Of a stretch of DNA of 64,000 nt, positions 1 through 62,477 are shown piece by piece. Within the stretch, counting starts at the first letter, position 1; each line of letters begins with the position of its first letter. Position numbers and translations under genes: made by a program. The notes beneath the pieces are model-generated. The model made no database searches, was not told where the DNA came from, and saw only the letters and a program-made list of their open reading frames with translations. Origin of the DNA: Branchiostoma lanceolatum (lineage: Eukaryota; Chordata; Leptocardii; Amphioxiformes; Branchiostomatidae); contig NC_089722.1 in the NCBI RefSeq assembly GCF_035083965.1, positions 22,127,142-22,191,141 of the forward strand. The letters run 5' to 3'.

Positions 1-360
1 TCATCACCCAGCGCATGCTAACTGCCATTTAGAGTTTCTGATGCATGATTCGGGCATTCTTCCTGTCCAACTAGTGTGTTTAGGAAAAGTCATTCAGTGG
101 CTTATAGAATTTTATAAGTTGATAATTGAAGTTTACAATTCATCATGTCTGTAAAATTCCAGCTGTTTCTGAAAGAAAGATAGAATTGATATGTTTTATT
201 CAAAACTAATCCCCACATTTTGATATCCAAAAGGAAAAGTCAGAATCCTTTATTCAAAATCACAACTCATGGCACCACATATATCTCATGTATATCATAA
301 GAGGATTATGAATTGGAGTTACTTATTTGGTTACTAATATTTCTCCACCTTTTCTTCCAG

Positions 361-2855: not shown

Positions 2856-5800
2856 ATGATGCGAAAGGGAGAGTTTTTGCTCCTCGAAGGGAAGAAAGGC
2901 CATATCCTTCGCCGCAAAGCTCTCGTCAACAACCAACACCTTCAGTTCGAACTGGGCATGTTGGAGCAAGAGAAACGGAGGGCGGAGGTTCGACTCAGGT
3001 TTGTACAAGAATCGACTACAATAATACGTTAAACCAAGGAGGTTATATAGACTATATGACCTCCTTGGTTAAACTTTACATAAGGAGGTTTACCTGGTTG
3101 TACTTCTTTGGTCATTCTTACAAAAATTGTTTTCGGCATTAGCATAAAAGTTAATCCCTGTGTTGGTTGAAGTTACTATCAACAAATCCTTAACTTCTAA
3201 CCCAAAGACATTTGGACTCTGAAGACTTGCGCTATTCAGTCAAACGTTTGTGTAAAACCAAATTCCGTTGTGTTAGAAGTTAACTGAGATTTGTTCATGA
3301 TAGTTGATAAAGAAAGTTTACTGCAAATTCCTGCCCGTAGGCTAATTGCATGTACATGTAACACGGAGTGGACGTACAGACAATAATAACAATATGACTA
3401 CTCTAGTCCGAGTTAGCTATCGTACTTTAATAGTTGCGATGTTTGTCTCATATCGATAGGAATCCATACCGCAGAAGTTCTTTAACATTTTAACGTTGTG
3501 TCGGGGCCCAAATGTATACGCGTAAAAATAGTTTTCTGAGGAAATATACAGCTTCCTCAGGCAGATGAGCTACCGTAGAGTGCAATGATTTATCATTACG
3601 GTGAAGTAAGACAACAACGGCAGTAGATTTTATATTTTTTGATAGGGGTATATAATTGTGATGGTAGAAATGTTCAAACTGACATTGCTTTGACATAGCA
3701 TCTCGTCGAAACACTTGTCAGCAAATATCACACTTTTCTGTTCCGACAACCAAGGAATTGTGACAACAAAGTGTGTTGAGGTTGATTAAAGTTTATTTTT
3801 AGATATCTGGGTGCTGAGGACGTTTTTTCATTGTTAATGATTGTAATCAAGAGGACAAAAGGCAATTAGTCGGTGGACCGATAATTACTCCTTGTGACTC
3901 GTAACAATGGATGGCTAGGAAGTAATTGTGTTGTTGACATCGTTGTTGTGGTAACAGTAAGCAGTAGTGCATGTTCCTACACTTCCGCCTATCTCGACTG
4001 ACCGGCCAGGTGAGTTTTGTAGCCTCCTTCGCAGACCTTCTATGTGCGGCGGCCGCCTTCTAGGCGCGTGCGTGGCTACGATCTCTCCAGCATAAGAGCC
4101 CATGTTGAAGATAGTTAGATTAAAGCGCTCCAAACAAAATGAACGCCTACTGCACCCAGAAGGTCTGCGAAGAAGGCTAGTTTTGGTCGTGTTTGCCCAA
4201 GTGCATCTTGCTAAGTTGGCGTTTAATAGGGGGCGCGTCTATCCATACGTACCTTTCCCTTCGATTGCAAGTTCAACATGTCCTTTTTTACTCCGGGAAG
4301 GAGGATGACCTCCTTCTGGGAGTATTGGGAATGCATTTGTTTACGCGTTCGCAGCTATAACTCACGATCCCGTTGTCGCACTGGTGTGTAACTTGGCATA
4401 TCGTTTGCCTGGTTCGGCGTGGTGATGCACAATAGCTTTGTTACACCATAACTACTTTAAACGTCAATCCAATATCGTAATTGCACCCCTATAATTAATG
4501 CTATGTCCCACTGCCCTGCCATAGGGACCATGTTATAATCCGTTATGCATGACTGGAATACTTCAGGCAGATACGGGGTATAAATCTTCCTTACTTGCTG
4601 TGATCGTATAGTCACTGTTACATTGAAAAATAGACAACGTGCATCACCACACGCAACCTAGCAAACGATATACCAAGTTACATACCAATGCGGCGACGGG
4701 AATTGTGAGTTTTCGCTGCGAACATGTGCCGAGTGAGCTTCAGTCTGTGTATTAAGTATGCCGTGTCCCTCGCAACTCGCATACACTACAGTATGTGCGC
4801 ACGGGACGGACGATGCATTTTTACGCACAGTGTGAAAATGACAAATCTCTGGACCTTCAAACTTACCACACTTGTAGTTTATAATACGGAGGCTGTGACA
4901 ATGTAAAAAGTTTACGCAGGGGATGAAAGATTGTTGAGAAATATATCTCAGAAAAGTGCGCGCGCCAGTGTCACTTCCGGGTGGTTAGATCCGGTGACCT
5001 TTGACCTTCGTGAAATGTTACGATAATTATAGCCTTTTTTATTGCAAATAGCTAGATAGCTATAGATCAGGCCGGCCTGCAATAAATTGTGGAAAGAGGA
5101 TTTACTGCATATTTGTGATTTCTGATACATCTTAGTTGTAAGGCTGAATGGTTCGTTGATAATTGAAAAGGGGCCATCTAGATCTAACTTTGTGACTTTT
5201 CCCGGAATTTCTAGATCCCATCTGTGCCATGCTGTACAAACATACTTTTCAGCAGGTTGACCACTCCTGTATTGAAAGAAAAAGATAAACAAACGCTTTT
5301 TCTTTACTTGCTCTAAAACACTACTTGGACTGAGCAGAGATGCAATTTGTGTGGGTCAATACTTGTACATACTATAAATACTTCACGGAGAATTGTGTCC
5401 TACGGACTCTTGTTTTCAGATTCGAGCTAGGTACTAGGTATGTTGGATGTTTGCCATGAAATTGCACTGGTATGCTATTGGTCGAAAATTTGTACCGTTG
5501 TATCTTGTAGATTTTAGAATATTTCCCCTTCTGTTTCTACAGATCAAAGAAGGACCAGCTTTTGCGTCAGTTTCAAAACCTCCGAAAACGCAGCGACGAA
5601 ATCAGGAAAGATTTAGAGCACAGAGAGCATTCACCCAGAAAAACCTGCATTGGTCCGTCTGCACTGCCATCGTCAAGCACGACAACGTCTTCGGAAGAAA
5701 ACCCTGGCGGTTCTAAAGAAGATATATTCCGTGCCGGTGAAAAAACCGAAACCGCACGGAAAAGATGGTCAATTGCAACTTGTGCGGTGGGTTGTTCACA

Positions 5801-6425
5801 ACATATACAACGTCTGAGAGGCTTTCCAACATTCCCATCTCATTTCAAGCCACGTTTCAAAATCACGGAAAACGACAAACGTGTTTCTAGCAAGGATGAA
5901 ACCGTATCAAAGCGCCGTGAAAGCCTCGATCCCACAATGTTAGCTTCAGTGCTGGATGTAGACAGCTCTATTGTAAAGCTGGACGTACAGGTCTATGCCC
6001 GGGTGCAATGGTCGCCCACGGCTGTTAGAAAGACTTTGGCACTCATGGGCGATGAAGAGCACAACGGAGGGAAGACAGTGCCTTCCTGCGGCGTGACGCG
6101 GCAACGCAGAGCAAGTGTTGCTTGTCCCACCTGGACGAGCAGACCGAGCGGCACACGGCTTCCACCTTTAACGTCTAACAGGATGACTGACACGGCTGTC
6201 ATGAGGAATGGCGCAAGCGTACATGGACGAAGGCACTCTCTCCCTGAAATAACTGTTACTCATCCACCATTGACGGTCGAGTCACACGGTCATGTAGGCG
6301 GCATAGGGTCCTGTCTAGGCTTTGGCACAATGTCTAGGCCAAGAAAATCTTCAGTTACCTTCGCTGAAAGAAATATCATAAAAGAAGATGATGATGATGA
6401 TCTTCTCTTGTCTCCTGTCTCATGA
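2856..6425 (+). CDS. Coiled-coil-like protein with RRxS motifs, paralogue A (two exons)
   Basis: Exon 1 is 2856-2998 (donor cag|gtttgt) and exon 2 is 5543-6425 (acceptor ctacag|a). The junction splits one AGA codon 2+1, giving 341 residues. The start is the ATG pair at 2856; no in-frame ATG is clear upstream. Residues 1-80 are rich in Glu, Lys, Arg and Leu and coiled-coil-like, with a HLQFELGMLEQ block followed by a LLRQFQNLRKRSDEI block after the junction. The rest is basic and low in complexity, with KRRESLDP, RQRRASVA, GRRHSLPEI and PRKSSVTF, which match Arg-x-x-Ser sites of basophilic kinases and in part 14-3-3 ligands. No catalytic domain or membrane segment is visible. It is a tandem paralogue of the gene at 13309-16204: same intron position and phase, and a shared SLDP/VLDV-x2-S block. 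I do not recognise a vertebrate orthologue; the function is unknown. The first exon could extend further 5'. Confidence 0.68.
3028..3074. repeat. Short hairpin built on CCAAGGAGGTT
   Basis: Arms 3028-3049 and 3053-3074 are inverse complements at about 20 of 22 positions. The element lies in the intron 30 bases after the end of exon 1 of paralogue A. The same CCAAGGAGGT core occurs nearby at about 2152, 2293 and 2550. Confidence 0.7.
4020..4180. mobile_element. 161-bp inverted-repeat MITE in paralogue A intron
   Basis: The left tip TAGCCTCCTTCGCAGACCTT and the inverse complement of the right tip (CTAGCCTTCTTCGCAGACC) pair over about 28 bases. The interior has no coding capacity. Confidence 0.75.
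4347..4723. mobile_element. About 377-bp inverted-repeat MITE in paralogue A intron
   Basis: Arms of about 85 bases (4347-4431 and 4638-4723) share GTTCGCAGC, AACTCAC, GTAACTTGG, ATATCGTTTGC and GGTGATGCAC in inverted order. The interior is AT-rich and non-coding. Confidence 0.75.
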
Positions 6426-13308: not shown

Positions 13309-16204
13309 ATGTCTCGGGAAGCAGGCGAGGTCTGTCCGAGCCTTCAGGAGAGAGAAGCGCGTTTTTTTCGCCAGAAGACTCGGACTAGCACGCGGCATCT
13401 GCAGTGCCAGGTGGGCGAATTAGAGCAGCAGACACGAAGGGTCGACCACGAAATCAGGTAAAAACCATTCGTTACTGTTTCAGTGCATTGATAAACGTGC
13501 AAGCATGCACGCAAATCAGCAAACCACTGACCGATTGGGCATTGCTTAAACCCAGAAACATTGGGATCAGCTGGTGCTAGAAGCTACTATGCATGGTCCC
13601 CTCCCATCAAACACATGAGAATAGAGGGCCGAGGATAGGACAGTAGCTGGGTAAAGGTAAAAACTATAAGATAGACCTCTACAATACGCGGTTGTAATTA
13701 TCTCCATGAAAAAATGGAGATATTGATTTTGGCTTGTCTGTGTGTTCGTGTTTCCGGACTATTGTAATCAGCCTAAATCAAGAACCTCTGTATGGATTAC
13801 GATGATATTTGGTATGTGGAAAGGTGTTGCGGAGACAAAGTTCAAGGACGATTTTGGGCCCCTGGCCATGGTATGTGACCTTGGTACTGCAGCATTTTTT
13901 TATATCTTTTGACCTGTGCGTGCTATGGTCTTCATTTTTATTGTAGCAGATAGCTTGTGATGTAAGAAATAAGTGGTGTAGGTCTGGGTCTCCTAGTAGC
14001 TTGTTCTGATCTATTTTACACATGTAACAAAGTCATGCTTGATTTCAAAGATTCCAAAGTAATTTTCAAATGACAAAGAAACGACACAATCGACAATGAT
14101 TTACCATCCGTCCATCGTTTTCTCTACACTTTGGAGCACGCTTGTTATTGGTGAACATGGTAAGGTACTTAGATACAATAGTCTGTATGTATGCAGTGGA
14201 AGGACGACACCCATAGAATACGCGTACGAGGATAGGGGATGGTCTAGAAATCTGGAGGATACAAAGACGACGAGGAGCTGGACATAATGACGTTTGTAGA
14301 ATTTCGCAAACAGTTGTTTGGCGAGACTTTGTGGAAAATATTTTCATTGAAGGCTCTCGCCCAGTTTGACCTATAAACTACGGTAAAAAGATACTCGGAG
14401 GTTGCAAAAGAATGCATAACGTTTGCTTGGAGGGCCCTGAGTTGTACATGTAGCAGAATTGAATACTAGAATGTTCGTAGAAGTAGGAGTACACTTGGTC
14501 AGCGGCTTGTTAAAATGGAGTAGCCACTGGGCTTCTCCGCGTGAGTCAAATCCACGTGTGTGCACCGCTGCCACCAGTATGCAACTCAACTCAAACTTTA
14601 TTGTACAGAAATTGTTAGGGATACAATGTGTGAAAAATTACTAAATAGGTCTATACAGTAACTTGTCTAATATCTGCGCTATGATGTAGTCAAAGTTTGA
14701 TAAAAAGCATAAACATCTGTGTCTGAAATAATACAGCCTCTCTTGCGTAGAGCACTGGATGATGAAGTCCACGTCACGGTGGTCTGACGCACGAGGCAAT
14801 TTCCCGTACCTAGCTACTTTATCATCAATGACATACTATTAACACCTGTCGATATCCCCAAGAGCGCAATTTCATCTTTTGTCGTGACCGGTATTGTCTC
14901 TAGATACGCAATTATCGTGCATAATTTTCTTGTTTGTTCCTATTTGAAGCTCCGGTTTGGGTTGGAGTGACCTACGAGTGGGGAGACATGTGATGCGCAT
15001 TCGAGTTATCATAGCAGTTCACAGTCCTCTCTGACCCGACTGAATTTGTATCTTTGGAAAGTTATCTATTCTCTCTTTCTGCAGATCCGAGCAGTTCCTG
15101 CTTCTGTGCCATTTTCGGAACCTTCGAAAAAACATGGACAAAGCCATTAGCCTTTCAAGTAGACGAAAACTTGTCCGACGAAAAGCCCGCAGCAGCGCCT
15201 TACCACTAAAGCCCTCGTCAACGAAGTTAACCACTTCATCAGATGGCTGCTCAGAAGAAGGCGGTGACAAGAAAACTCAAGACAAAGAAAATGTCTCCAC
15301 GTGCCATGAAGCTGATGACTGTGACCAAGCCGATCCTGCAAAGAAAGACTTACAATCGGAGGGCAGACTCGGAAGAACCACCAAAATTACACAAAGAAGA
15401 TTCTCGGTTCCTGTCTGTACAGCAGAGTCGCTGCCTCAACTGCAGCACCAGAAAAAGGGTGCAAAGACCTGTAAACTCGTGCAAAGACGCAGACACAGTC
15501 TTCCCGCTATCCAACCTCGTGACAAGGAACGGCACGAACTTAGGGAAATCGCGGAAGAAGAGGAAGTAGAAACTATGACAACTCGCAGAAGGTTGTCGGT
15601 TCCCGTGGAGTCTTTACGGCAACTGCAGCGGCACAAAGACTATGTATTATCCAGCAAAGGTCTCCATAGGCGGAGGCACACTTTTCCTGCCATCCAACTT
15701 TCCCAGGATCGAGAAGAACTTCAAACAGTCGTAGAAGGTGATGAACCTGCCGTGGACAAGACAACTAGCCAGTTGCAGATAGTAGAAACGAGGAATGAAG
15801 CCATAAGAAAGGCGTCCACACTTCTCCGTCAGAGACTCTTCCCCACTATTGTGACACCCGTTCTCGATGTAAACAATTCTTCTGTACAACCGACAGAGCA
15901 GAAGATACAACTGCCGTCCAAGTTTGAACCAGAAAGTGCTTTCGACAGCAACCTGGAAAAGAAATCGCCTCCCAAGACAGGTTGGCAGCGCAGGGTAAGC
16001 GACGGGACGGCGGTGAAAACGAGCCACGCTGAACACTTCCACCGGAGACGTTCGTTCCCCGCACTATGTGTTGAGCACTGCACATCGCGTCTCCACCCAG
16101 AACCACGCACGGGACACATGACACCATGGCACAGCATTTTTACCAAGTCCAAGACGAGAATATATTCCATTTCGGTGGAGAGTGGATATGTTATAAAGGT
16201 ATAA
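13309..16204 (+). CDS. Coiled-coil-like protein with RRxS/RRRHSLP repeats, paralogue B (two exons)
   Basis: Exon 1 is 13309-13457 (donor atcag|gtaaaa) and exon 2 is 15085-16204 (acceptor ctgcag|a). The intron splits an AGA codon 2+1, exactly as in paralogue A, giving 422 residues. The start is ATG at 13309; the frame is open further 5'. The N-terminus (HLQCQVGELEQ, then LLLCHFRNLRK) aligns with paralogue A. The middle holds an internal duplication of about 50 residues: RRFSVPV..ESLPQLQ..RRRHSLPAIQ and RRRLSVPV..ESLRQLQ..RRRHTFPAIQ. Later come LFPTIV..VLDVNNSS, shared with A, and HRRRSFPAL. The motifs fit PKA/Akt-like sites and R-x-x-S-x-P 14-3-3 ligands; that is inference. No enzyme domain, signal peptide or helix in the membrane is seen. 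AATAAA at 16293 and 16301 follows. Family and function unknown. Confidence 0.72.
13683..14040 (+). repeat. Dispersed repeat fragment in paralogue B intron
   Basis: The sequence resembles the head of the element at 43156: a run of TCTGTGTGTTCGTG, GATATTTGGTATGTGG, ATTTTGGGCCCCTGG and GTAAGTGGTG-like blocks in the same order. It lacks the octamer-rich tail. Confidence 0.5.
14041..15084. other. Rest of paralogue B intron
   Basis: I see no additional exon with matching phase and no clear repeat boundary. The sequence ends in a good pyrimidine tract and gcag acceptor at 15081-15084. Confidence 0.5.
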
Positions 16205-19275: not shown

Positions 19276-21285
19276 ATGGCCAGGCTATTCACCATCGTAA
19301 CGGTCATTCTCACGTTGTCCACCGTTGACCGCTCTACCTGGGCGTTCCACGCCTGCACAAGTGAGGGGGTCGGTCTGGGCTGTGCCTGCGACAGCTTCAA
19401 CACCGTCGACTGTTCCAACAGGGGAGTAAAAGACGTTCCAGACCAAGTCCCTCCCGATACCATCACCCTCCAGCTCAACAACAACAAAATACAGGGGCTT
19501 GTGGAGAACCAGTTCCCCGGTCTATCGTCTCTTTTGTCGCTGGACCTCAGTAACAACAGTATCTCGTACGTCGAAAAAGGCGCGTTTTCTGCACTGGGTA
19601 GTCTGACACAACTGCGACTAAGTAACAACAAGCTCTCGTCCGTACGAGCCGGTATGTTTGAAGGAATGCCGAGTCTAGACAGCCTGATTTTGAGTAGCAA
19701 CGCAGTACGGGATATAGAAAAGGGGTCGTTTGTTCGCCTTCCTAGGCTGACAACTCTGGATTTGTCAAACGGATTACTCGTTGATATAGAAGTGGGTTAT
19801 TTTACACCATTGGCAAACTTGCAGACACTCTACCTCTCGGGAAACCCTATACAACGCATACTGAACGGCAGTTTCCAAGGTCTGGCGCAGTTACAAGACT
19901 TGTACCTTATTGGTACCGAGCTTCTTGAGATATGGCCTGAGACGTTCTCTGGAGCAGCAAACATTCAGTCGCTCTACGTCAGAGACAGCAAGTTGAGAAG
20001 AATCGCTCCCGGCAGTTTTTTCACGCTGCCACGACTCAGCCACTTGGACTTTCGCAACAACGCCTTACAAGTCATCGAACCGGGAACATTCACCAACATG
20101 CCCAACATAATGTCTGTTGATCTTAGCTATAATCCTTTGTCGACGTTGAAGAGTTTTGCATTCAATCTGAAAGGACTCTCAACGCTTCGCGTGTGTAACC
20201 TTAGTAACGCGCGTCTGGAGAATGTGGAGGAAAATGCCCTTGGAGGAGAACCGCTCTGCGAAGACTTCTTTTGTGATCGTACACTACAGTTAGATCTGAG
20301 TAACAACAACTTGGAGACGCTTCCAAACTCGTTTTGTAATCTGTCTCAGACAATCATATTCACCGGCGAGGGGATTGTATATTCTCTAACTGGTAATCGT
20401 TTTAGTTGCGACTGTAGGCTTAGGAAGTTAGTCTCTTGTATTCCTCTTGCAACGTACATTCGGTGTGACGCGCCGCTTGTTTTAAAGCACAAGTTTCTCG
20501 ACAAGATTTCTGTCGGAAATCTCAACTGCACTCCGCCGCGGATAGCTACGTTCGTTCTTCAACAAGACGGCAGAAATGTGACGATGTTTTGCAACGCTAC
20601 AGGATTCCCTGAGCCGACCATCTCTTGGGAAACATCTGCGTCGCCAGAGGGCGCGAGAAACAAAGAAGACGCCGGGCGCCAAATGAAAGGGACGGGAACT
20701 TTGACCATCTCAGATGCGAGTAGTGAAGACGGTGGGACGTATGGATGTACAACCATCAACCCTGGGGGACGGGACTCACGCCTAGGGTATCTGGCTTTCT
20801 TCGAAGTCCCCAAGGAATCTCCTAAGACATCTTACTTGGGGATCTTACCGTCAAACCTCGCGTGGTGTTTGATTGGAGCAGGTATTGGTTCATTTTGCAC
20901 CCTCCTTGTCAGTATCGCCGTTTTCTGCATTTGCAGAAGACGTTGCTCTGAATCATCCCACGAAACTACAACAAACCCAGAGGGACATGAGATGTTGCGA
21001 GTTTGCAATGAGACGCAGCTAGAGGATGTTGATGACTATGGAAACGATGATGATGATGATAATGACTATGAAGTACCCCATGCCCACGCGAGCAAGTTGA
21101 CAACGCCGTTTAACGCCGGTGACCGGTTGTATCAGAGCCTTGGAAAGGAAACTAGACCTGTCAGTGGCGGTCCACCCCAGCGACGCCCCCCTCCCCCTCC
21201 TCCCCACAGGCACAACAGTCACTCTCATCCCTCTCATCAGGACTACACTCCCCTGGTCCGGGGAACGAGGTCGGTCAGGGTCTGA
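19276..21285 (+). CDS. LRR and Ig domain transmembrane receptor, single coding exon
   Basis: The 669-residue protein starts at ATG 19276 in a good context (acaccATGg), 6 bases after a splice acceptor, so the 5'UTR is probably spliced. Residues 1-24 form a signal peptide. An LRRNT cap follows (Cys at about 27, 36, 38, 46), then about 12 leucine-rich repeats (about 61-372, LxxLxLSNNxI pattern) and an LRRCT cap (NRFSCDCRLRKLVSC). One Ig-like C2/I domain covers about 418-515 (Cys-x-Ala-Thr-Gly..Trp, DGGTYGC). The membrane helix is about 528-552. The 117-residue tail has an Asp run, DNDYEVPH, a polyproline SH3-type stretch (PQRRPPPPPPHRHN) and DYTPLV. The order matches LRIG/AMIGO/LINGO-like cell-surface receptors for adhesion or recognition; the orthologue is not resolved. 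The stop lies inside a 33-bp minisatellite. Confidence 0.93.
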   Translation: MARLFTIVTVILTLSTVDRSTWAFHACTSEGVGLGCACDSFNTVDCSNRGVKDVPDQVPPDTITLQLNNNKIQGLVENQFPGLSSLLSLDLSNNSISYVEKGAFSALGSLTQLRLSNNKLSSVRAGMFEGMPSLDSLILSSNAVRDIEKGSFVRLPRLTTLDLSNGLLVDIEVGYFTPLANLQTLYLSGNPIQRILNGSFQGLAQLQDLYLIGTELLEIWPETFSGAANIQSLYVRDSKLRRIAPGSFFTLPRLSHLDFRNNALQVIEPGTFTNMPNIMSVDLSYNPLSTLKSFAFNLKGLSTLRVCNLSNARLENVEENALGGEPLCEDFFCDRTLQLDLSNNNLETLPNSFCNLSQTIIFTGEGIVYSLTGNRFSCDCRLRKLVSCIPLATYIRCDAPLVLKHKFLDKISVGNLNCTPPRIATFVLQQDGRNVTMFCNATGFPEPTISWETSASPEGARNKEDAGRQMKGTGTLTISDASSEDGGTYGCTTINPGGRDSRLGYLAFFEVPKESPKTSYLGILPSNLAWCLIGAGIGSFCTLLVSIAVFCICRRRCSESSHETTTNPEGHEMLRVCNETQLEDVDDYGNDDDDDNDYEVPHAHASKLTTPFNAGDRLYQSLGKETRPVSGGPPQRRPPPPPPHRHNSHSHPSHQDYTPLVRGTRSVRV

Positions 21286-21488
21286 ACCAACCGGAGAGCG
21301 AGCTCGGACAGGGTCTGAACCAACCGGAGAGCGAGCTCGGCCAGGGTCTGAACCAACCGGAGAGCGAGCTCGGACAGTATCTTGACCAACCGGAGAGCGA
21401 GCTCGGACAGGGTCTGAACCAACCGGAGAGCGAGCTCGGACAGTATCTTGACCAACCGGAGAGCGAGCTCGGACAGGGCCTGAACCGA
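21271..21488. repeat. 33-bp minisatellite spanning the LRR-Ig stop codon
   Basis: Six full units and one partial unit, from 21271, 21304, 21337, 21370, 21403, 21436 and 21469, share AACCGGAGAGCGAGCTCGG. Two internal variants occur: CAGGGTCTGAAC in units 1, 2, 3 and 5, and CAGTATCTTGAC in units 4 and 6. The receptor stop TGA (21283-21285) lies in unit 1. Because 33 is divisible by 3, one other frame stays open through the whole array, with an 11-residue period ending GLNQPESELGQ. Confidence 0.95.
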
Positions 21489-22406: not shown

Positions 22407-23572
22407 GATAGGGAGTATGATTTGCTAGGGGCTACGAAAGGGGTTGACCGGCCACGTTTCGGGATGTCACTTTACCGCGGACTGACTCTGCTGGCCAATT
22501 ATGCCCCTTTTTTGCCAAATTCTACGATCTGTACCCCGTAGGAAGGCCTGGTGGAGGCTTGTCTTTTCCGACCCTCACGGAATAAAAACCTAAATATGAG
22601 CAGTCCCATTCATGAATATGGACAGATTACACACGCCCAATGAGAGGTGAGTGAACTTCCCGAGGTTATAACCTCCTTAGTGAACCCGCTTTACATGAGC
22701 AGCATACATATGTTCATGAGCTTTAGATTAGTCTCAGCGGTATCCATATGACAAGGCTATATTACACAACCCAGCAGAATGAAAACAATGGCTGTCAACA
22801 TGCTGGGAGCTTAAGGTATGTCTGGTTGTTTTACCACCATTTCTTCTACATGGAGGAACACTGCGTATTTGTAACGTTACGTCTTTTTAGACTTGTCAAT
22901 TTCTCTTTTTACTTCCTCGCGCGACGCTATTGGGTGGCATACGCAGAGAAACACTTGCCTGTTGATTACATTCGCCAAGAAGGTTGTTTTTTCCATGCCG
23001 TTTTTGGCAACGCCTTTGGGGCGAGCCTAATGGTATAGTATTGTCGGGTTTGTGGGTGGATTGATTTTTCTGATATTGAGTATGTGTGACTGGGTGTCGA
23101 CAAGATGAAGAACAAGTTTATGGGTTCCTAGTTCATTTGTATCGTGTGTTTTTTTCAACGTGAAAATAGTTGGACAGAGTCGTTTGGAAAAGTAGCTAGC
23201 GTATTGCTGAATAATCCTTAAGCATGCATTTACCAAAACTATATTCCACTTGTATTTAGAGATAACAACTCACCAAATACTAGCTGAAGTATAAAGACAC
23301 TAACCTTTATTACAGTTGATATTCTCCCTTTCCCTTTATGTATTGTCATGTATGTTATTTTCGTCCCCATCTCTAATGTATAACAACGCTGTGTGCTGTG
23401 TTCTTGTTTTTTTGCTTGAAGTCAGCCACTGGACATATTGATAGCAATAAACATGTGTAGAACTTGTGTAGCTTACTTTGAAACTTATTTTCAGGATGTG
23501 CGATTCTAGGGTAAAGAGCGTATGAGATTTGTTTATAGTTATGGAATTGTTTTCCGCTGCTTAGAAGCAGAA
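22407..23572. other. Intergenic, upstream of the EGF-lectin receptor
   Basis: A short palindrome AGGTTATAACCT lies at 22663-22674. An acceptor-like sequence (tttccgctgcttag) ends at 23564, 8 bases before the receptor start codon, so a 5' untranslated exon probably lies in this region. I cannot place it. Confidence 0.4.
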
Positions 23573-26500
23573 ATGGAAGACGATGAAGAACACGTGTATG
23601 AGGATGTGGACGGTGTGAACACAAAGCGACCTCGGAGGCATCTGTACGAAAATGATGGTGTGAACGTCCCGAGGGACATAAAGCTACCTCCGGGGTACGC
23701 GTACGAAAATGCCGAGGATGTGAACGTCCCGAGGGACACAAATCGTCCTCCGAAGCACGCGTACGACAATCCCCACGATGTGAACGTGCCGAGGGACACA
23801 AAGCGACCCCCGAGGCACGAGTACGATGAGGTGGCCCGTGACCCGACTGGGTTACCTCGGTCTGTGCCTGAGGGATATCTACGTCACCTTCTCCACACGG
23901 CAGACGTGGTGTGGGCGGGGTTCACCGGCCCAGGGGAGCAGTACACCGACACGTCCTACACAGCAAACGATGCTAAACAACGCGAGGAGCAAGAGGAACG
24001 GCGCTTTGGCTACAAAGCTAGAGGTACGTCCAGTTACTACAGGGTTAATGACCCGCTTCCCTTTGGTGTATACGGTGTAATAACGCATGGCTGGTTCCTA
24101 TAACCACCAAAATAACCCACCGATTCGGCGAAGCGAGCGAGGTGATTTACAACATTGTAATAGGAACAGAATATGCCTTATGACACAGTATAGAACAAGG
24201 GAAGCAAGCCATTTAGCAAAATTATCATTTAGCGACTGTCGTATATCAAAGTGAAAAATGAGTGAAAAAAAGTCCCGTATAACATATAACTCTTTTAATC
24301 TTACACACATTGAAGCATTTGTTAAGTCGTTGGTGAAGTTGAAGGTACCAGGTCTACTTCTAGTACACTTGACCGCCATATTGGATTTAAGCGGAAAAAT
24401 CTATACGTGGTCAATATGGACTAACAATGATGGTGGTTATGGCAAAGTGGAGACTTCTCATTGGTCCACATCATTTGGCTATATGGTAATAGTATTTCAA
24501 ACATATCTTACCTGCTCTAGAGCTACATGTAAGCATTGCTATTATGTTGAAAAAGATATTACCTTTTGTTATATGTCTTATATGTACACACGCACGATAT
24601 TCAACGAACGTTCGGGAAATGCGTTATAGTAAATATGTCAAAATGGATTATACATAACGTCTACGTGCGAGCCCAACAAAGGGCGTCTGCAATGTATATG
24701 GTTTACGCAATACCTACCGACCAATGAATGCTGATAGCAAAGAACATACAATGGAGATAATGAATATTTATAATCGCACTTGTAAATACGTCTATTGCAA
24801 TTCTTTGTCAACACAGCAAAATGCGGTTGGTTGACTGAAACAGAAATGTCATTCTCTCAATAACAGTGGGTTCAAAGTACAAAGCATCTTTGAAAATCTT
24901 TATTGCATTCCTTTGTCGTTATATAACGTTAGAAGTCATTCCTCTAAATTTATACATGCGGTTTTTCCAAGTCTGATATTATTGCTTTGTTGGTAGTTTG
25001 ACATTTAAGAGAGAAGCTGATAAGCGAGATTATCTGGGGCCATTCAAACAAAATGAAAGTGTTGTTGGCTGTTCTTGTAATTCATTGTCGGTTGTCTAAG
25101 AAGAGAGATAGTACCACACGATTGGAACTTCTTAAGCAACGTGTAAATGCTGTATCTTAAGCCCCTGTCACACAATCGGGACCTTCTCACGTACGACTTT
25201 GCTCCCGACCACTCCCCAACCAAGGTCGGCCCTGTGTTGGGAGTAGCCTGGAATCCCTCCTATTCAAGCTCCAATTCGCTCCTCTGATCGCATCCAAGCA
25301 GAATAAGACTTTCCCGACTTTGATTTTTTTTTTTCAAATATATGATTGGCTGACGCAGACAATTTTCAATTCTAGCAGCCTTGACGACCAACTCCCAACC
25401 ACAAACGACCTTGCTCACGACTAACTCCCAACCATGGTCTGGAGAAGGTCGGGAGGCCTGATCGGCTATGTGTGACAGGAGCTTAACGTGTTTACCTTAT
25501 CTGTATACCTCAGAGCGAGCCAGCGAAGTGTGGGGTTGGTGGAATTCTAACAAATCTCATTGGATCGCGCTGGGCTGTGGGCTCCTGGTCCTAGCGTCAG
25601 TTGTCACCGGTGCAGTCCTGACCATTGGCCTCGTAGCTGGAAGCAAGGTGGGCCAATCATTGAACGTCAAAACCGAGGTATTGAAATCAGTTTGTTGTTT
25701 GTATATCTTGGTGTGCATCCGCAGCTATATGAAAGGTGGTGTAATAGGATACGTAAGAATGGTTCGGCGAGGGTGCAATGATGTTGTCTTTGAGAGCCAG
25801 GAAGTGATTATACGCGCAAGTGGAGCACGTTTTGGACTAGCCTGGCGAATCGCGCTCCTAGTGGCCAGTCGGTCCTGTAACCCTCATCCCCTTGGGTGGG
25901 GGTCAGTAACCTCCAGCCGAGAGCTTGTGTAAGTACAGGCTAGTTTTGGACGACTCGTTGCGCACGCACACAACAGTGTCAGGCCATACCCACGTATGCT
26001 TCGGTCCCAATTGGAAAAAGGGGCCCCGCAGGGTAGTTCACGGGCTGTTGTGTTGCACTTTCGACTGTGACCCCTACGTGGCCCCGTGGGGCCCCCTGTG
26101 GCTGCCGAGCTATTTTGGGGCAATGAAATAATGAAGTTAAATTATTTCAACCCAGCCTTAAAATCAGCGCGGGACCCGGTAACAAATAGACGCCGTGAGG
26201 TAATCGTGCGAGCACCGGGAGGAACCCCCCCCCCCTCCTCGTACACGGCAGTCCACCGGGACAAATTTGAGGCTTCGGGGCCCAGCTGGGACTACACCCC
26301 CGACGGGCACCGGCGCAATTCAGACCGTATACGTAGCATAAGAACTTGTCACGTCGATGTTCAGCCTATTGGATCAGGATCTTGTCATTTTATATATTAT
26401 GTTGTAGTGTAGTTGTGTTTAGGCTTGATGAAGTGTGGAAGGAGTTCATTCTGTAAAGAAAGTTTCAAGTCAAAATTAGTCTAGTAGGATTATGAATAAC

Positions 26501-29500
26501 ATTAGTATCAGGGTGGTTTGATAACAATGTAAAAGTCTGTTCACTCTTTTGTATGCGTACAAAGGCAGACATTATGCATCCTACCAGCAATCAAAACAGC
26601 GCGGAGACCGAAACAAGGACTACAACGCCAGGTCCTCCATGGTTGACGACATTCTACTCGTACATGGAAAACAGCTCCGACTTCGACAACTGGATTTCGC
26701 TATCTGCACCAACGGGACCGAGCTCCACTGTGAACACCGAGATCTTGCCAATAACCGTCACATCTTTGCCTACTACTGCTACGGGTGAGCAACGTACATA
26801 ATACAACCGCTGTATGACGTACACTTCATGTTTCTGTGTTTCTTCTTTTTTTTTAATTTCTAAAAGTACTCAATTTTGGTTGCTTGCTGTACTAGGCTGA
26901 ATGAAGAATTTGTTCTATGAAAAAATGTAGTATTTATTTCAACTCCACACAGAGCTAAACGAGTGCGCCAGTGAACCATGTCAGTATGGACAATGTGTGA
27001 CCAAAGATGGCGGATACAAATGTACCTGCTCACCTGGATGGACTGGACAGAACTGTCAGCAAGGTGAGTTCTTTATCTTTATATAGTGTGAATAATGAAG
27101 TACATGTAGCATGTTTTGTTTTTCTAGTTCAAGGAAGAAGCCTATCTTTTTTATTACTTTTCACATTGCTTTGTTTCTATATACATGCTTTATATATTTC
27201 TTACACATTTTGAGAATTAGTTTAAATCAAATACGTATTTTTCTTTCTTTATCACACAGACATAAATGAGTGTACTAGCAAACCATGTCAACATGGACGC
27301 TGTGTGAACAAAGATGGCGGATACAAATGTATCTGCTCACCTGGATGGACTGGACAGAACTGTCAGCAAGGTGAAGTCTATTGTAGTGGTCACATTGTTG
27401 TTAGAAACTATGATGGTTTCCTGTGTGGGATATCACTTTTGTTTTCAGCTGTTCTTTTGCCTGATATAACTCAACTTCTTTCACTGAATAGTTTACGAAG
27501 TCTTTCACAATTGAAACTTGGAGTAAATTAGTTAATATATTAATAACGTCTAAGGCGCATTCATAAAAAATCGTTGATCATATTTTTTTCAATTTCACAG
27601 ACATAAATGAGTGTGCCAGTGAACCATGTCAGTATGGACGCTGTTTGAACAAAGATGGCGGATACAAATGTGCCTGCTCACCTGGATGGACTGGACAGAA
27701 CTGTCAGCAAGGTGAGTTCTCTGTAATTAGGGAGATAATGAAGCATTGTGTTTTGTTTTTCTAGTAAAAGAAATAAAGCCTTCCCTATTTTCTTCCCTTT
27801 TCACATTCCTTTGTATCTACCCTCATTTTCTCATTTTTGAGAGAATTTCATTCAAATACGTGTTGTTTTTTCTCTATCACACAGGCATAGATGAGTGCAC
27901 TTACAAACCGTGTCAAAACGGACGCTGTGTTAACATAGATGGCGGCTGCAAATGTACCTGCTTTCCCGGATGGACTGGACAAAATTGTCAGCAAGGTGAG
28001 GTCTATGGTGTAGCCACAGCCAGAAAAGTGTTCCTTTTTCTAATTTTATGTGTATGACATTAATTTGTCTATTAGTAAGCTACATCATTTGATTCCATTG
28101 CCTTTATCATTTCTTCATTCATACAGACATCGATGAGTGTGCCGTGATACCATGCCAACATGGACGCTGTGTGAACAAAGATGGCGGATACAAATGTATC
28201 TGCTCACCTGGATGGACTGGACAGAACTGTCAGCAAGGTGAGGTGTTCTTGTGTAACGGTTGTTAAAGAGAGTAAAGTGTTCTGTTTCTTTAACTAAAAA
28301 GAATAATGTTATATATGAATATATCTAATCTAAATTAGTTTCATAACTAACTAGTTTCATTACCTACAGCGTATTGTTTCTTTCAATCACACAAACAGAC
28401 GTTAACGAGTGTGTTAGTCATCGGCCATGCCAACATGGACGCTGTGGGAACAAAGATGGCGGATACAAATGTACCTGTTACCACGGATGGACTGGACAGA
28501 ACTGTCAGCAAGGTGAATTCCTATGGTGTATGTTACATACACTGAGCGTACAATGTTTTGTACTCTCTTCCAATGTTGCTGGCTTTCTGTGGTACCTTTT
28601 CCAAATCTTCTGCGCAAATTGTCCTTTTCTAGAATTGAATTGGAACTTTGTAGGAATGCTTTTGTTTGGATAACATGGACAAAAAGTATCATATCTTTCC
28701 ACACAGACATAGATCAGAGTTTGGAGAATCGCTTTTGTCAGATGGGGTGGACCCAACATAACAACCGCTGCTACCAGCTGAGTGCAGAGTCGGTCGACTG
28801 GTCCACAGCGGACAGGCGGTGTAAAGAAGCAGGTGCAAATCTTGCTTCTGTTGAAAACGATGCGGAAAACAAGGTCATAAAAGAGATCATTTCTACGGGT
28901 AGGCATTGAACAACTCTATCCTCTCACTGATGATATAATTCTTTAAGATTGTATAACTTCAGATCAGTGTTGATTTTGTTTTAGGGGATTTGGTCCGATT
29001 TTTCATGTCGGTTGTGCCACCATTTCGTTTCATTTCGTTTCATTTCGTTTCGTTCCATTTCTCATTTTCTGTACACCGCACCTGTGTAGCGTTTTCAATT
29101 GCCTTTCTTGTTAAGATTGTAACATATAACGTGAATCTCTCGTGTGTGTTTTTTTTATTCAAGCTGCAAATGTAAAAGCGCCCCCTAGACTTCAATAATC
29201 CTAGTGCAGACCTAGGTAGCATTGCTAACGCTGCATGACTGACTGATAACTGATTACAACTTGACGTTTGCCTTTCGCTGCAGCCCGCGCATGGCTTCCA
29301 GTCGTCTGGCTTGGACTTAAGGACATTAAGAAATCGACTTGGACGGATGGATCGCAAGTTTCCTACACCAACTGGGCCCCACATGAGCCGGACAGCATCA
29401 GAACAAGGAGGCCGGCCTTTTGGTTCAGAGCCCTAGTTGGAGCCCTGAGAGGCCCAAAACATCCAGACAACTGTGTCGCAATCTACTATAAAGTGAGTGC

Positions 29501-30980
29501 TTCTGTCTGTCTTCTTCGTTTTTCTGATTGGCGAAGAATGCATTACAGTTTGCTTCGAATAGGCGTTATGCTGAGTGTTTTCCGGCATTATTCTTTCATC
29601 AGATGCCACTAACGTGTTTCAACTACCTCTAATATAAGTGAGAAGTACCAAAGCCCCTATATGACTTTGGAAAAAATTCATCTTACCAGAGTGCTTTGTA
29701 ATCATTATCCTTTCTCGTAATGTGGGAGAAACATGAGAGTATTTTTTCAAAGAAGACGACGTTGAATTGAGATATCTGTGATGGCAGTTAGTCTGGCTTC
29801 TATTTGATTCTGTAAGTTATCAATATTAGAGTAGGGTAGAATTTTCGATCAGGTAGGAAGTTTAGACCGCTATTCATCAAGATCCAGACCTGAAATGGTA
29901 GTCTTCCGAGAGAAACGAATTACAAAATCTATGGTAACGTTAAGCCTAGGTTACACATAGCCGAACATGGCTCCCGAACGCTAGCCGACTCAGGTCGGCG
30001 GTAGTTCGGGAGCATTCTGACCAGTTTTTGGGCCACGCCTATCTTTGGCGCCGAACATGCGCCGAAGATGCGCCGATCTTCTCCTAACCAGTACACGAAT
30101 TACTCCCGAATGGGCCCCGAATGCTTTCTAGCTTACTCCCAACCATCCCGACCTCTAGCCGCAGACTGCCGAATCTCTCCTGACTAAACCCCGACCGATT
30201 GCAGACCCTCTCACGAATTCAAATGGACATATTCAGCGACTTTCAAAAGAGGGGTCATTTTCGGTTTTAACTAAAATAATCCATTCTGTTATGTTGTTAA
30301 CATCACCGAGAGATCGAATTCGGATCATGGCTAGCTTTAATACTGCTTTTAGTGTTCTTCTTTGTTTTTGGTCGTGTGAAGGTCGGGGGTGATTCGCCCA
30401 CGTTCCGATAGTAGTCACTTGGTTGAGAATTAGTTAGCAGAGTTTTGTCTACGGCCTTGGGGTGAGTTATGGGTAGGTTGGAAACTGGTTGGGAGTAATT
30501 CAGTAGTGTTTCTGGCGTGGTTAAGGTTCTAATTTTACTACTGACTCAATCCCGAATACCAGCCGAGCACTAGCCGACCGCGCCGAACACCAGCCGAACA
30601 CCAGCCGACCCATTTCAGACCCTCCGTCCAGAGCCGAATGTTTTGAAATTTTCAAAACATTCGGCTGGCGCAGCCGAACACCAGCCGACTCAGCCGAACG
30701 CCAGCCGACTCGGCCGAACGCCAACCGAGTTAGCTCCCGAATCACTCCCGAATCACTCCAACCATGGTCGGGGGAGAGTCGGGAGGCCATGTTCGGCTAT
30801 GTGTAACCTAGGCTTTAACAAGAAAGTGACGGTAATATATTACTACTAACTTTTTTGGTGCATCTAATCTTTCAACAGGACGCCACACATCATGATTTCG
30901 GATTGAGGAAAAGAGGACAGTGGAAGGATGACTTTTGCAACCGGCATTACCTCTACCTTTGCAAGAGTTCCCAATGGTAA
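23573..30980 (+). CDS. Type II receptor: Tyr-repeat tail, TM, six EGF modules, C-type lectin domain
   Basis: Exons: 23573-24023, 25514-25677, 26565-26784, EGF exons 26953-27063, 27260-27370, 27601-27711, 27885-27995, 28127-28237, 28399-28512, and lectin exons 28707-28898, 29284-29492, 30879-30980. All phases agree (phase 1 around every EGF exon), giving 668 residues. There is no signal peptide. Residues 1-165 are cytoplasmic, with four 20-residue repeats led by YEDV, YEND, YENA and YDNP, then YDEV. The membrane helix is about 168-192 and a Ser/Thr/Pro stalk about 205-278. EGF modules follow the calcium-binding D-I-N/D-E-C pattern; module 4 has Gly for the first Asp and an extra Cys. The lectin domain has WLGL, WTDG, CVAIY and WKDDFC, but the EPN/QPD position reads EPD, and a basic insert of about 20 residues follows it. 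AATAAA is at 31088. It is probably a cell-surface glycan or ligand receptor. Confidence 0.85.
23597..23821 (+). repeat. Coding 20-residue tandem repeat with Y-x-N motifs
   Basis: Units start at 23597 (48 bases), 23645 (57), 23702 (60) and 23762 (60). Each begins with a Tyr codon followed by Glu/Asp-x, then [12 protein letters not shown] or a variant. YEND, YENA and YDNP have the pTyr-x-Asn form bound by GRB2-type SH2 domains. Confidence 0.85.
24024..25160. other. First intron of the EGF-lectin receptor, left part
   Basis: Begins with a good donor (gag|gtacgt). I see no further exon. Confidence 0.5.
25161..25482. mobile_element. 322-bp TTAA-flanked inverted-repeat element
   Basis: Flanked by TTAA at 25157-25160 and 25483-25486. 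The ends GCCCCTGTCACACA and, inverted, GCTCCTGTCACACA pair. The interior carries CTCCCGACC/GGTCGGGA blocks also seen in the element at 29944. TTAA target sites suggest piggyBac-type mobilisation; that is inference. It lies in the first intron of the receptor gene. Confidence 0.8.
25678..26564. other. Second intron of the EGF-lectin receptor
   Basis: GC-rich patches around 25850-26300 contain runs such as GGGGCCCC, but I can define no repeat ends and no exon. Confidence 0.4.
26953..27995 (+). repeat. Two-exon block duplication of EGF modules
   Basis: The block 26953-27370 (EGF1, intron, EGF2) matches 27601-27995 (EGF3, intron, EGF4). Exons 1 and 3 share SEPCQYG, exons 2 and 4 share Lys-Pro-Cys-Gln. 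The two introns between them align along their length (GTGAGTTCT, ATAATGAAG, TTTTGTTTTTCTAG, CAAATACGT, ATCACACAG). The introns outside the block do not align so well. Confidence 0.75.
29493..29943. other. Last receptor intron, left part
   Basis: Starts with a consensus donor (aaa|gtgagt). Nothing else is recognised before the TTAA element. Confidence 0.45.
29944..30814. mobile_element. 871-bp TTAA-flanked inverted-repeat element
   Basis: TTAA flanks at 29940-29943 and 30815-30818. The ends GCCTAGGTTACACATAGCCG and, inverted, AGCCTAGGTTACACATAGCC pair over about 30 bases. The interior is packed with AGCCGAACACCAGCCGAC-like tandem motifs near the right end. It is related to the 322-bp element at 25161 and lies in the last receptor intron. 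Confidence 0.85.
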
Positions 30981-31130
30981 TAATCCGATCCCAGTTGGAT
31001 ATTAAGAAACCCACGACCTTACACTGTAGAAAAAAAATGGAAGACGCCTGGTTGGATCAGTAGTAAATGCAATTCAATCAAGTCTTAAATAAATGTACAA
31101 AAGACAATTATACAACTGTCAACATCTAGT

Positions 31131-36838: not shown

Positions 36839-37537
36839 ATGTCTGGTACCCAGAACACCACGCTTTGGACGTCAACTCCAACAGAGGCCCTGAACCAAAC
36901 GACGCAATTCGAAATGACGTCAACAGGGAACGACTTCACCACTGAGCACAACGTAACCATCACAGCGCCGACGACTATGTTACAGAATCAGACGACTTCC
37001 TATACCGTGTCTTCTGAGCGGCCTGTGAACGAGTCTACGTTTAGGTCCACCAAGGAGGTTAACCTCCTTGGGTCCACCGTGACGACACCAGCCATCATTT
37101 CCTCAGTAACAACAAAACCGGGAGCCGAACGGTCAAGTAGAAGCTACGAAAGCACCAGTACTCTACCAGGTACTCGTAACTGTACATGTGATAATAACGT
37201 TAGCATGCTTCTGGTAGGAACCGCCTTAGGTTCCGTGTTAGCCACTTGTGTCGTGTGTGCCATCATCTTTTTAGTTTGGAAAAAATTCTGCCACGAAAAG
37301 GGTACCGCATACCGGGACGGCATGGACAACGAGGAAGTACGCGTGGGAAAAAGGTCATCTACAGACGACAACGTCTCTTCCCGGGACCAGGACCAGTCTG
37401 AATCTCGTCCCCCAGCGCCTCTCCCGCGGTCCGAGCTACAGGACAGTCGGTACCTGACTTTGACCGATTTGAAGCCCGTGACTTCTGCATCTACCACTGA
37501 CATTGCCCTTCGGGAAACAGTTGGCAACATTCGCTAA
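36839..37537 (+). CDS. Mucin-like single-pass membrane protein
   Basis: Begins at ATG 36839, one base after a clear acceptor (tttctttaaccag, ending 36837), and reads 232 residues to TAA. Residues 1-120 are rich in Ser, Thr, Asn and Gln, with several N-glycosylation sequons (NTT, NQT, NVT, NES). A membrane helix follows at about 123-145 (GTALGSVLATCVVCAIIFLV), then a basic stop-transfer segment (WKKF). The tail of about 85 residues has a Pro stretch (RPPAPLPRSE) and SRYLTLTDL, a Tyr motif. No signal peptide is visible, so either an upstream exon supplies it or the protein inserts N-out without cleavage. A perfect 22-base palindrome lies inside the coding sequence at 37050-37071. The family is not recognised. 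Confidence 0.65.
   Translation: MSGTQNTTLWTSTPTEALNQTTQFEMTSTGNDFTTEHNVTITAPTTMLQNQTTSYTVSSERPVNESTFRSTKEVNLLGSTVTTPAIISSVTTKPGAERSSRSYESTSTLPGTRNCTCDNNVSMLLVGTALGSVLATCVVCAIIFLVWKKFCHEKGTAYRDGMDNEEVRVGKRSSTDDNVSSRDQDQSESRPPAPLPRSELQDSRYLTLTDLKPVTSASTTDIALRETVGNIR
37050..37071. repeat. Perfect 22-bp palindrome inside coding sequence
   Basis: CCAAGGAGGTT followed at once by its inverse complement, in frame as Lys-Glu-Val-Asn-Leu-Leu. The same 11-base core forms the hairpin at 3028-3074. Confidence 0.9.
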
Positions 37538-56850: not shown

Positions 56851-57284
56851 ATGTCCGGTTCTATCCACTTTATCAGAGGAACTTTGAAATATACAATTGT
56901 ACGTTAAGGGTCTAAAAGTCACCATTTAAATACATTTCCTATGAAGGTACGATTTATTATATTTTCTTAGTAAAAAAAATCATATCATTAATGGCATGGT
57001 GTACGGATAGCATTAATAAATTGACTTAAATGTTATCATTGAACACCTAGTTCGGGCGATACCAATACTAAAATCTATACCAATTAGAATTGACATTTCA
57101 GCCAATTTAGGTCCACATCAGCCAATCACGGAAAATATAACGGAAATGTTTTGGGTTTAAAATTATTGACCAATCAGCGCTCATGTTCTGAGCTTGCCCA
57201 GACCTGCCCTTTACGTCACAGGCTGACGAAAAAATCACTGGGGAAGGGTATTTTTTTCAGTGATCGTCCTAGAGACCGGTACAA
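56851..57284. promoter_or_regulatory. Bidirectional promoter between cytospin and PPM1D
   Basis: The two genes start head to head about 430 bases apart. CCAAT boxes occur at 57122 (GCCAATCACGG) and 57170 (ACCAATCAGCG). No TATA box is evident at an appropriate distance. Shared control of the two genes is inference. Confidence 0.6.
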
Positions 57285-62382: not shown

Positions 62383-62477
62383 GTGAGTACTTAAGCATGA
62401 AAGCTCATATGTGTTGGTACATTCCATGATAAAGTTTGATACTTTACTTCAACTTAGTAATTGAATCACTCCTGAAG

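Follow-up and report, generated by a model that had tools for sequence, protein, structure and literature searches.

A tandem array of five tyrosine motifs in the first coding exon of a lancelet C-type lectin receptor gene

In the lancelet Branchiostoma lanceolatum, a gene for a C-type lectin receptor has in its first coding exon a real, coding tandem repeat that places five acidic-flanked tyrosines along a tail predicted to lie in the cytosol. The gene is located in a stretch of 64,000 nucleotides (contig NC_089722.1 of assembly GCF_035083965.1, positions 22,127,142 to 22,191,141, forward strand), which was analysed as a whole and is referred to here as the window. Our best reading of the array is a docking tail that mixes GRB2 and Nck types, similar in design to LAT or nephrin but joined to a lectin. 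The broader proposal, that the product is a type II C-type lectin receptor whose N-terminal tail serves as a built-in multivalent phosphotyrosine docking scaffold, has in our judgement about an even chance of being correct.

Results

The array is not a chance run of tyrosines, because Tandem Repeats Finder called it as a repeat (23619-23826, period 60, 3.5 copies, 80% matches, score 248) and a blastn comparison of exon 1 with the window returned a self-match shifted by one unit (151 bases, 80%, E 2e-34). Five tyrosine cores follow one another along the tail, namely Y9 (YEDV), Y25 (YEND), Y44 (YENA), Y64 (YDNP) and Y84 (YDEV), and all five fit a wider repeated core of the form [H/Y]-x-Y-[D/E]-[N/D/E]. 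An earlier note on this DNA had described four 20-residue repeats; its coordinates (23597-23835) and list of motifs stood, but the equal spacing did not, since the steps from tyrosine to tyrosine are 16, 19, 20 and 20 residues. Unit 0 is short and diverged, Y84 sits on the 3' edge of the final copy, and the linker that follows Y84 has no match to the repeat. The units are:

23597..23644, + strand, repeat unit 0 with Y9; 16 residues, shortened and diverged
23645..23701, + strand, repeat unit 1 with Y25 (YxN); 19 residues, holding one PPGY
23702..23761, + strand, repeat unit 2 with Y44 (YxN); 20 residues
23762..23821, + strand, repeat unit 3 with Y64 (YxN and YDxP); 20 residues
23822..23833, + strand, fifth core YDEV with Y84 (Nck-type YDxV), at the 3' edge of the array

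A 12-exon gene model was assembled by hand at 23573-30980 on the + strand and encodes a product of 658 residues. In this hand-built model all 11 introns are GT-AG and all phases agree, although the acceptor of exon 3 (ACAAAG) is weak; the coding sequence closes with TAA, and an AATAAA is present at 31088. Of the six frames, only the chosen one is free of stops over the whole length of exon 1, and its codon score was also the highest (+0.124 per codon, against -0.03 to -0.19 for the remaining five) when scoring was trained on the remainder of the lectin gene and a neighbouring leucine-rich-repeat (LRR) open reading frame (ORF). Over the array region alone further frames are open too, reverse-strand ones included, as a 60-base period would lead one to expect. 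The earlier note had made its reading depend on exon 1 being joined to the EGF and lectin exons; on paper this joining is phase-compatible, as the phase 1 donor suits exon 2. No convincing second copy of the tail, transmembrane exon, stalk, EGF domains or lectin domain was found in the window (off-gene blastn rows had E of at least 0.29), and an Rfam scan of the whole window gave no match at gathering score. The exons are:

23573..24023, + strand, exon 1; start codon, first 150 tail residues and tyrosine array; donor AG/GTACGT, phase 1
25514..25647, + strand, exon 2; residues near the membrane, together with the one transmembrane segment predicted (about residues 167-193)
26565..26784, + strand, exon 3; stalk rich in Thr, Ser and Pro, bearing one N-glycosylation sequon
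26953..27063, + strand, exon 4, phase 1-1; EGF domain 1 (gene model, Pfam)
27260..27370, + strand, exon 5; EGF domain 2 (gene model, Pfam)
27601..27711, + strand, exon 6; EGF domain 3 (gene model, Pfam)
27885..27995, + strand, exon 7; EGF domain 4 (gene model, Pfam)
28127..28237, + strand, exon 8; EGF domain 5 (gene model, Pfam)
28399..28512, + strand, exon 9; EGF domain 6 (gene model, Pfam)
28707..28898, + strand, exon 10; first exon of the C-type lectin domain (Pfam, solved-structure matches)
29284..29492, + strand, exon 11; second exon of the C-type lectin domain (Pfam, solved-structure matches)
30879..30980, + strand, exon 12; last exon of the C-type lectin domain, with the TAA stop (gene model, Pfam)

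The product is predicted to be a type II membrane protein in which an N-terminal tail and one transmembrane segment are followed by a Thr/Ser-rich stalk, then by six EGF domains and a single C-type lectin domain. Pfam identified six calcium-binding EGF stretches (EGF_CA, E 2.2e-35) and one Lectin_C domain (E 1.9e-10, 41.9 bits against a cut-off of 22.6), which bears out the EGF-lectin identity that had been proposed for the gene. The lectin domain matched 183 distinct solved sequences at E <= 0.001; among the best 60 of these 183, the top-scoring structures were PLA2R, lymphocyte antigen 75 and mannose-receptor chains, with total scores inflated for multi-domain chains such as PLA2R and the mannose receptor, and the best single-domain chain was mannose receptor C type 2. 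C-type lectins usually carry EPN or QPD, together with WND. The domain encoded here reads EPD and WKD at these motifs, and calcium-dependent sugar binding is putative.

The topology was computed from the translated model. One strongly hydrophobic segment is present (best 19-residue window 174-192, taken as 167-193), and Lys plus Arg number 6 on its N-terminal side versus 2 on its C-terminal side within 25 residues (2 versus 1 within 15). Of the 44 cysteines, none lies in the tail, one falls inside the segment and 43 are C-terminal to it. The Lys/Arg bias and the cysteine distribution are the reasons for which the tail is predicted to be cytosolic. The computed arrangement, with one transmembrane segment ahead of the lectin domain and the N-terminus inside, is that of a type II protein and would place the array inside the cell, in agreement with the cytoplasmic position first suggested for the repeats.

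We examined the motif content of the tail by a regular-expression scan of residues 1-166. Y.N occurs three times (Y25, Y44 and Y64), YD.V once (Y84) and YD.P once (Y64); Y9 and Y84 fit YxxPhi, and a single PPxY covers residues 39-42; YxxL/I, YxxM, NPxY and PxxP were not found in these residues. The definition of the hemITAM, the half-length form of the immunoreceptor tyrosine-based activation motif (ITAM), includes YxxL, and the scan found an acidic run but no acidic-GYxxL match. The same residues contain no match to the ITAM pattern (YxxI/L x6-12 YxxI/L), to the inhibitory motif (ITIM, [SIVL]xYxx[ILV]) or to the switch motif (ITSM, TxYxx[VI]) as these are given in PMC7226588; here and below, statements about published motifs and systems refer to the parts of the cited papers that were covered.

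YxN is a documented ligand form of GRB2 (PMC4263166, PMC3291652), as the earlier note had held, but it is found at three of the five repeated tyrosines, those of the three central units; YEDV and YDEV do not have this form, and GRB2-type sites do not make up the whole array. The tail of mouse nephrin has YDEV at two places (PMC3237483 Table 2), and a title cited within PMC3237483 ties phosphorylated YDXV to Nck. By sequence, a Nck-type YDxV is present in the lancelet tail at Y84 only, one site of the five. The array appears to be of mixed type because it combines three YxN sites with one nephrin-type YDEV. YEDV resembles acidic Src-family or Nck-type sites. For a scaffold like that of LAT or nephrin, which we framed for this analysis from the cited papers as three or more sites of SH2 type at intervals of about 20 residues, the tail offers its five sites at steps of 16, 19, 20 and 20.

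We hypothesized that the tail is a docking scaffold, in which case phosphorylation, adaptor binding, clustering and output, all read from motifs, would proceed as follows. The lectin head, lifted on six EGF domains and the Thr/Ser-rich stalk, would be clustered by a multivalent sugar ligand, and tyrosine kinases, probably Src- or Syk-family members, would phosphorylate the five acidic-flanked tyrosines. GRB2-family adaptors could dock through their SH2 domains on the three YxN sites, and adaptors of Nck or Crk type could bind YDEV and perhaps YDNP and YEDV as well. Several adaptors might fit on one tail because the sites lie about 20 residues apart in a seemingly unstructured chain, and these adaptors would cross-link neighbouring receptors through SH3 partners, in the way described for LAT and nephrin. 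The outcome would likely be Ras/ERK signalling, and local actin assembly or phagocytosis.

Published work on other receptors bears on several of these steps. LAT, nephrin and EGFR all have SH2 sites spaced by about 20 residues, and the first two of these proteins form condensates (PMC9333988). Clustering of nephrin tracks phosphotyrosine valency, such that three sites cluster, two need higher concentrations and one gave no clustering at the concentrations tried (PMC4238058). A lancelet Lck has been described, along with an LRR receptor whose phosphorylation in Jurkat cells was Lck-dependent (PMC8211107). Among solved structures, no relative of the tail was found at E <= 10.

The tyrosine content of the tail is seldom reproduced by shuffling: at least three YxN arose in 268 of 20000 shuffles of its 150 residues, and at least five Y[DE][NDE] in 2 of 20000. 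These counts say little about selection, because the copies descend from one unit and are not independent. Several other results weigh against a scaffold maintained for its tyrosines. Synonymous and nonsynonymous rates among units 1-3 (NG86 dN/dS pairs 0.22/0.22, 0.17/0.28 and 0.27/0.40) are not far apart. In a neutral simulation of three copies derived from a hand-made ancestor, with 8 down to 5 substitutions per copy, Y[DE][NDE] survived in all three copies in 7-20% of runs, and Y[DE]N did so in 5-17%; retention of the tyrosine core is thus not unusual under neutrality. Ten of the 19 columns common to units 1-3 are invariant, linker residues among them, and since the linker residues VN, VPRD and PP are conserved as strongly as Tyr and Asn, tyrosine is not singled out. 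The exon borders of the gene model were picked by hand so that the reading stays continuous. AlphaFold2 run on the single sequence of exon 1 gave a mean predicted local distance difference test score (pLDDT) of 55.5, with no confident structure and no secondary structure over residues 1-99, and a low pLDDT obtained from one sequence is weak evidence of disorder. Relatives of the tail were sought in IMG/VR (9 pattern matches, none confirmed by tblastn) and in a prokaryote genome collection (51 pattern matches, none confirmed by tblastn), a negative outcome that is expected for an animal gene. Lastly, an in-frame ATG at 25468 (ORF 25462-25932), just upstream of exon 2, could give rise to a tail-less form that lacks the tyrosine array.

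The earlier note had further proposed that signal strength evolves by copy number, which our comparison of the units did not support. Units 1-3 share 75-83% nucleotide identity, and the 80% match rate of the array is the lowest among the seven Tandem Repeats Finder arrays with a period of at least 29 in the window, the others having 85, 87, 88, 89, 97 and 97%. The array looks older rather than hypervariable, and recent turnover is not suggested. C-type lectin domains are over-represented among dispensable genes of lancelets (PMC12373286), and the presence or absence of the whole receptor gene may therefore vary.

These results could also reflect a neutral minisatellite, in which the 60-bp unit was copied by slippage or unequal exchange within a disordered tail and kept because its length is a multiple of three, with one, two or none of the tyrosines mattering. 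Disordered tails tolerate changes in length, the units have diverged without clear purifying selection, and the core is retained to an ordinary degree in the neutral simulation. In addition, a 33-bp array of the neighbouring LRR and immunoglobulin (LRR-Ig) receptor gene begins 27 bases before the stop codon and continues past it, so that such arrays evidently arise here without coding selection. A neutral origin accounts less well for Y-[DE]-[NDE] being kept at all five sites, including the diverged first unit and Y84, whose linker departs from the repeat, or for a spacing near the roughly 20 residues reported for SH2 arrays; we regard it as possible but doubtful. Alternatively, the tail could serve ligand uptake and not signalling, with clathrin adaptors reading YEDV and YDEV as sorting signals of the YxxPhi form and a Nedd4-type ubiquitin ligase being recruited by PPGY. 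YxxPhi is a sorting signal and PPxY a WW-domain signal, C-type lectins do use tyrosine signals for uptake, and both patterns occur in the tail, YxxPhi at Y9 and at Y84 and PPxY once, at residues 39-42. The three central tyrosines, which lie on the best-preserved units, do not fit YxxPhi, however, PPxY is confined to one unit, and the acidic-plus-Asn contexts probably suit SH2 ligands better, which makes an endocytic tail improbable.

Two further possibilities concern the placement of exon 1. Transcripts of the main receptor might begin near exon 2 at the ATG at 25468, leaving exon 1 to another transcript or a rare isoform; the in-frame Met of ORF 25462-25932 upstream of the exon 2 reading would permit this, but exon 1 has a good donor of the phase 1 that exon 2 needs and a frame that is open and coding-like, and we give this arrangement a slim chance. 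It is extremely improbable that the repeats are extracellular, as they would be if an in-frame ATG at 23522, 51 bases upstream of 23573 (ORF 23510-24103), added a signal peptide and produced a type I protein. That topology would leave the lectin domain and the six EGF domains, with 43 cysteines, in the cytosol, and the Lys/Arg bias favours an inside N-terminus.

Discussion

Several known proteins can be compared with this receptor. CD72 has type II topology and is not known to have EGF domains; the mannose receptor is a type I protein with many lectin domains. LAT, LAB and LAX are adaptors not known to have a ligand-binding ectodomain, nephrin is an immunoglobulin-type adhesion receptor, and NKG2D is lectin-like. 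In the cytosolic scaffold p130Cas, repeated tyrosine motifs of the substrate domain form an SH2 docking array; YDNP of the lancelet tail fits the YDxP form, but only one of the five sites here is YxxP. Layilin is a further lectin with repeats in its tail.

Among C-type lectin superfamily members, CD72 is comparable in that its cytoplasmic tyrosines bind SHP-1 and Grb2 (PMC5996280), but it has two ITIMs, whereas the receptor described here has five repeat-borne sites and no ITIM. PMC11239442 mentions CD72 and SHP-1, and in the part covered Grb2 appears only in a reference on CD22. YENV was considered as a CD72 motif and not assigned; in the literature covered it belongs to CD22. The tail of the macrophage mannose receptor (MRC1) contains a YxNx motif recognised by Grb2 (PMC5904212), although what is described there is one motif and not an array. 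The hemITAM C-type lectins CLEC-2 and Dectin-1 likewise have an acidic stretch ahead of the tail tyrosine (DEDG in Dectin-1, PMC11624271; MEDDEEHVY here), but the lancelet receptor has neither DEDG nor a YxxL after the tyrosine.

Further parallels come from adaptors and from other receptors. LAT, LAB and LAX carry several YxN sites per tail with variable Grb2 valence, LAT having three YXNX, though in the covered part of the source these are not described as tandem repeats (PMC3291652); the Y171-Y191 spacing in LAT is about 20 residues (PMC9333988). Nephrin shares the YDEV motif, a spacing of about 20 residues and valency-dependent clustering driven by Nck (PMC3237483, PMC9333988, PMC4238058), but mouse nephrin has two YDEV, compared to one exact YDEV and three YxN here. 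Among immune receptors and their partner chains, NKG2D/DAP10, TIGIT and DNAM-1 recruit Grb2 through pYxNx or immunoglobulin tail tyrosine (ITT)-like motifs (PMC7226588), although each is described with a single motif and NKG2D relies on a separate partner chain.

A single YxN/Grb2 site in a C-type lectin receptor is therefore already known, and YxN in a C-type lectin is not new, because the Grb2 sites of CD72 and the mannose receptor are in print. The earlier statement that the arrangement was not known in any described C-type lectin thus fails for single sites and holds for the repeat array within the literature covered: among the mostly open-access papers listed for lectin tails, and in the covered parts of the papers cited, no repeat-borne YxN array was found, which does not prove that none exists. 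We also found no literature on a Branchiostoma transmembrane C-type lectin with Grb2, and a word search of the main text of PMC2575513 and PMC4284660 did not find "lectin".

C-type lectin receptors have been classed as ITAM-coupled, hemITAM, ITIM, or none/unassigned (PMC11624271), and a repeat-built SH2 array fits none of the ITAM-coupled, hemITAM and ITIM classes. If the scaffold reading is correct, the receptor would link glycan binding to the clustering of adaptors within one molecule, and a short tandem repeat would have generated a signalling array with the spacing of LAT and nephrin. Should the number of units differ between animals, valency could be related directly to signal. In its fullest form the proposal unites a sugar receptor and a LAT- or nephrin-like scaffold in one polypeptide, such that lectin clustering would produce a condensate of adaptors by way of five sites carried on repeats, of both GRB2 and Nck type, and would do so with neither an ITAM partner chain nor a separate adaptor scaffold; we put this forward tentatively and consider it unlikely as it stands.

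Other features of the window

The window contains 86 stop-to-stop ORFs of at least 95 residues, ten of which were put individually to Pfam. Just upstream of the lectin gene, at 19276-21282 (+ strand), one open frame encodes an LRR-Ig transmembrane receptor of 669 residues. Its acidic tail bears tyrosines in DDYGND (YxN by eye), NDYEVP, RLYQSL and DYTPL, together with a proline run, and the LRR-Ig and lectin genes are two adjacent receptors that both have tyrosine-bearing tails. The 33-bp minisatellite of the LRR-Ig gene lies at 21258-21486 (6.9 copies, 88%), its onset being 27 bases before the end of the ORF and its remainder extending past the stop; it is open in another frame, which reads as PESELGQGLNQ repeats.

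Downstream of the lectin gene, an ORF at 36839-37534 (+ strand) encodes a Thr/Ser-rich mucin-like membrane protein of 232 residues from the first Met, which had no Pfam match at E <= 0.01 and whose tail sequence SRYLTL fits the ITIM pattern [SIVL]xYxx[ILV] by eye. At 46979-51024 (- strand) are ORFs of a Ser-rich, coiled-coil-like protein, three pieces of which were put to Pfam, two giving sub-cut-off matches only and one giving none. Within 57273-62391 (+ strand), the ORFs 57273-57707 and 61966-62391 match a PP2C-type protein phosphatase by Pfam, which we take to resemble PPM1D. Finally, two long ORFs at 5511-6422 and 15044-16201 (+ strand) had no Pfam match at E <= 0.01; their beginnings are alike by eye (FQNLRKR and FRNLRKN) and both carry Arg/His/Ser "RRHSLP" motifs, suggesting that they are possibly related to each other.

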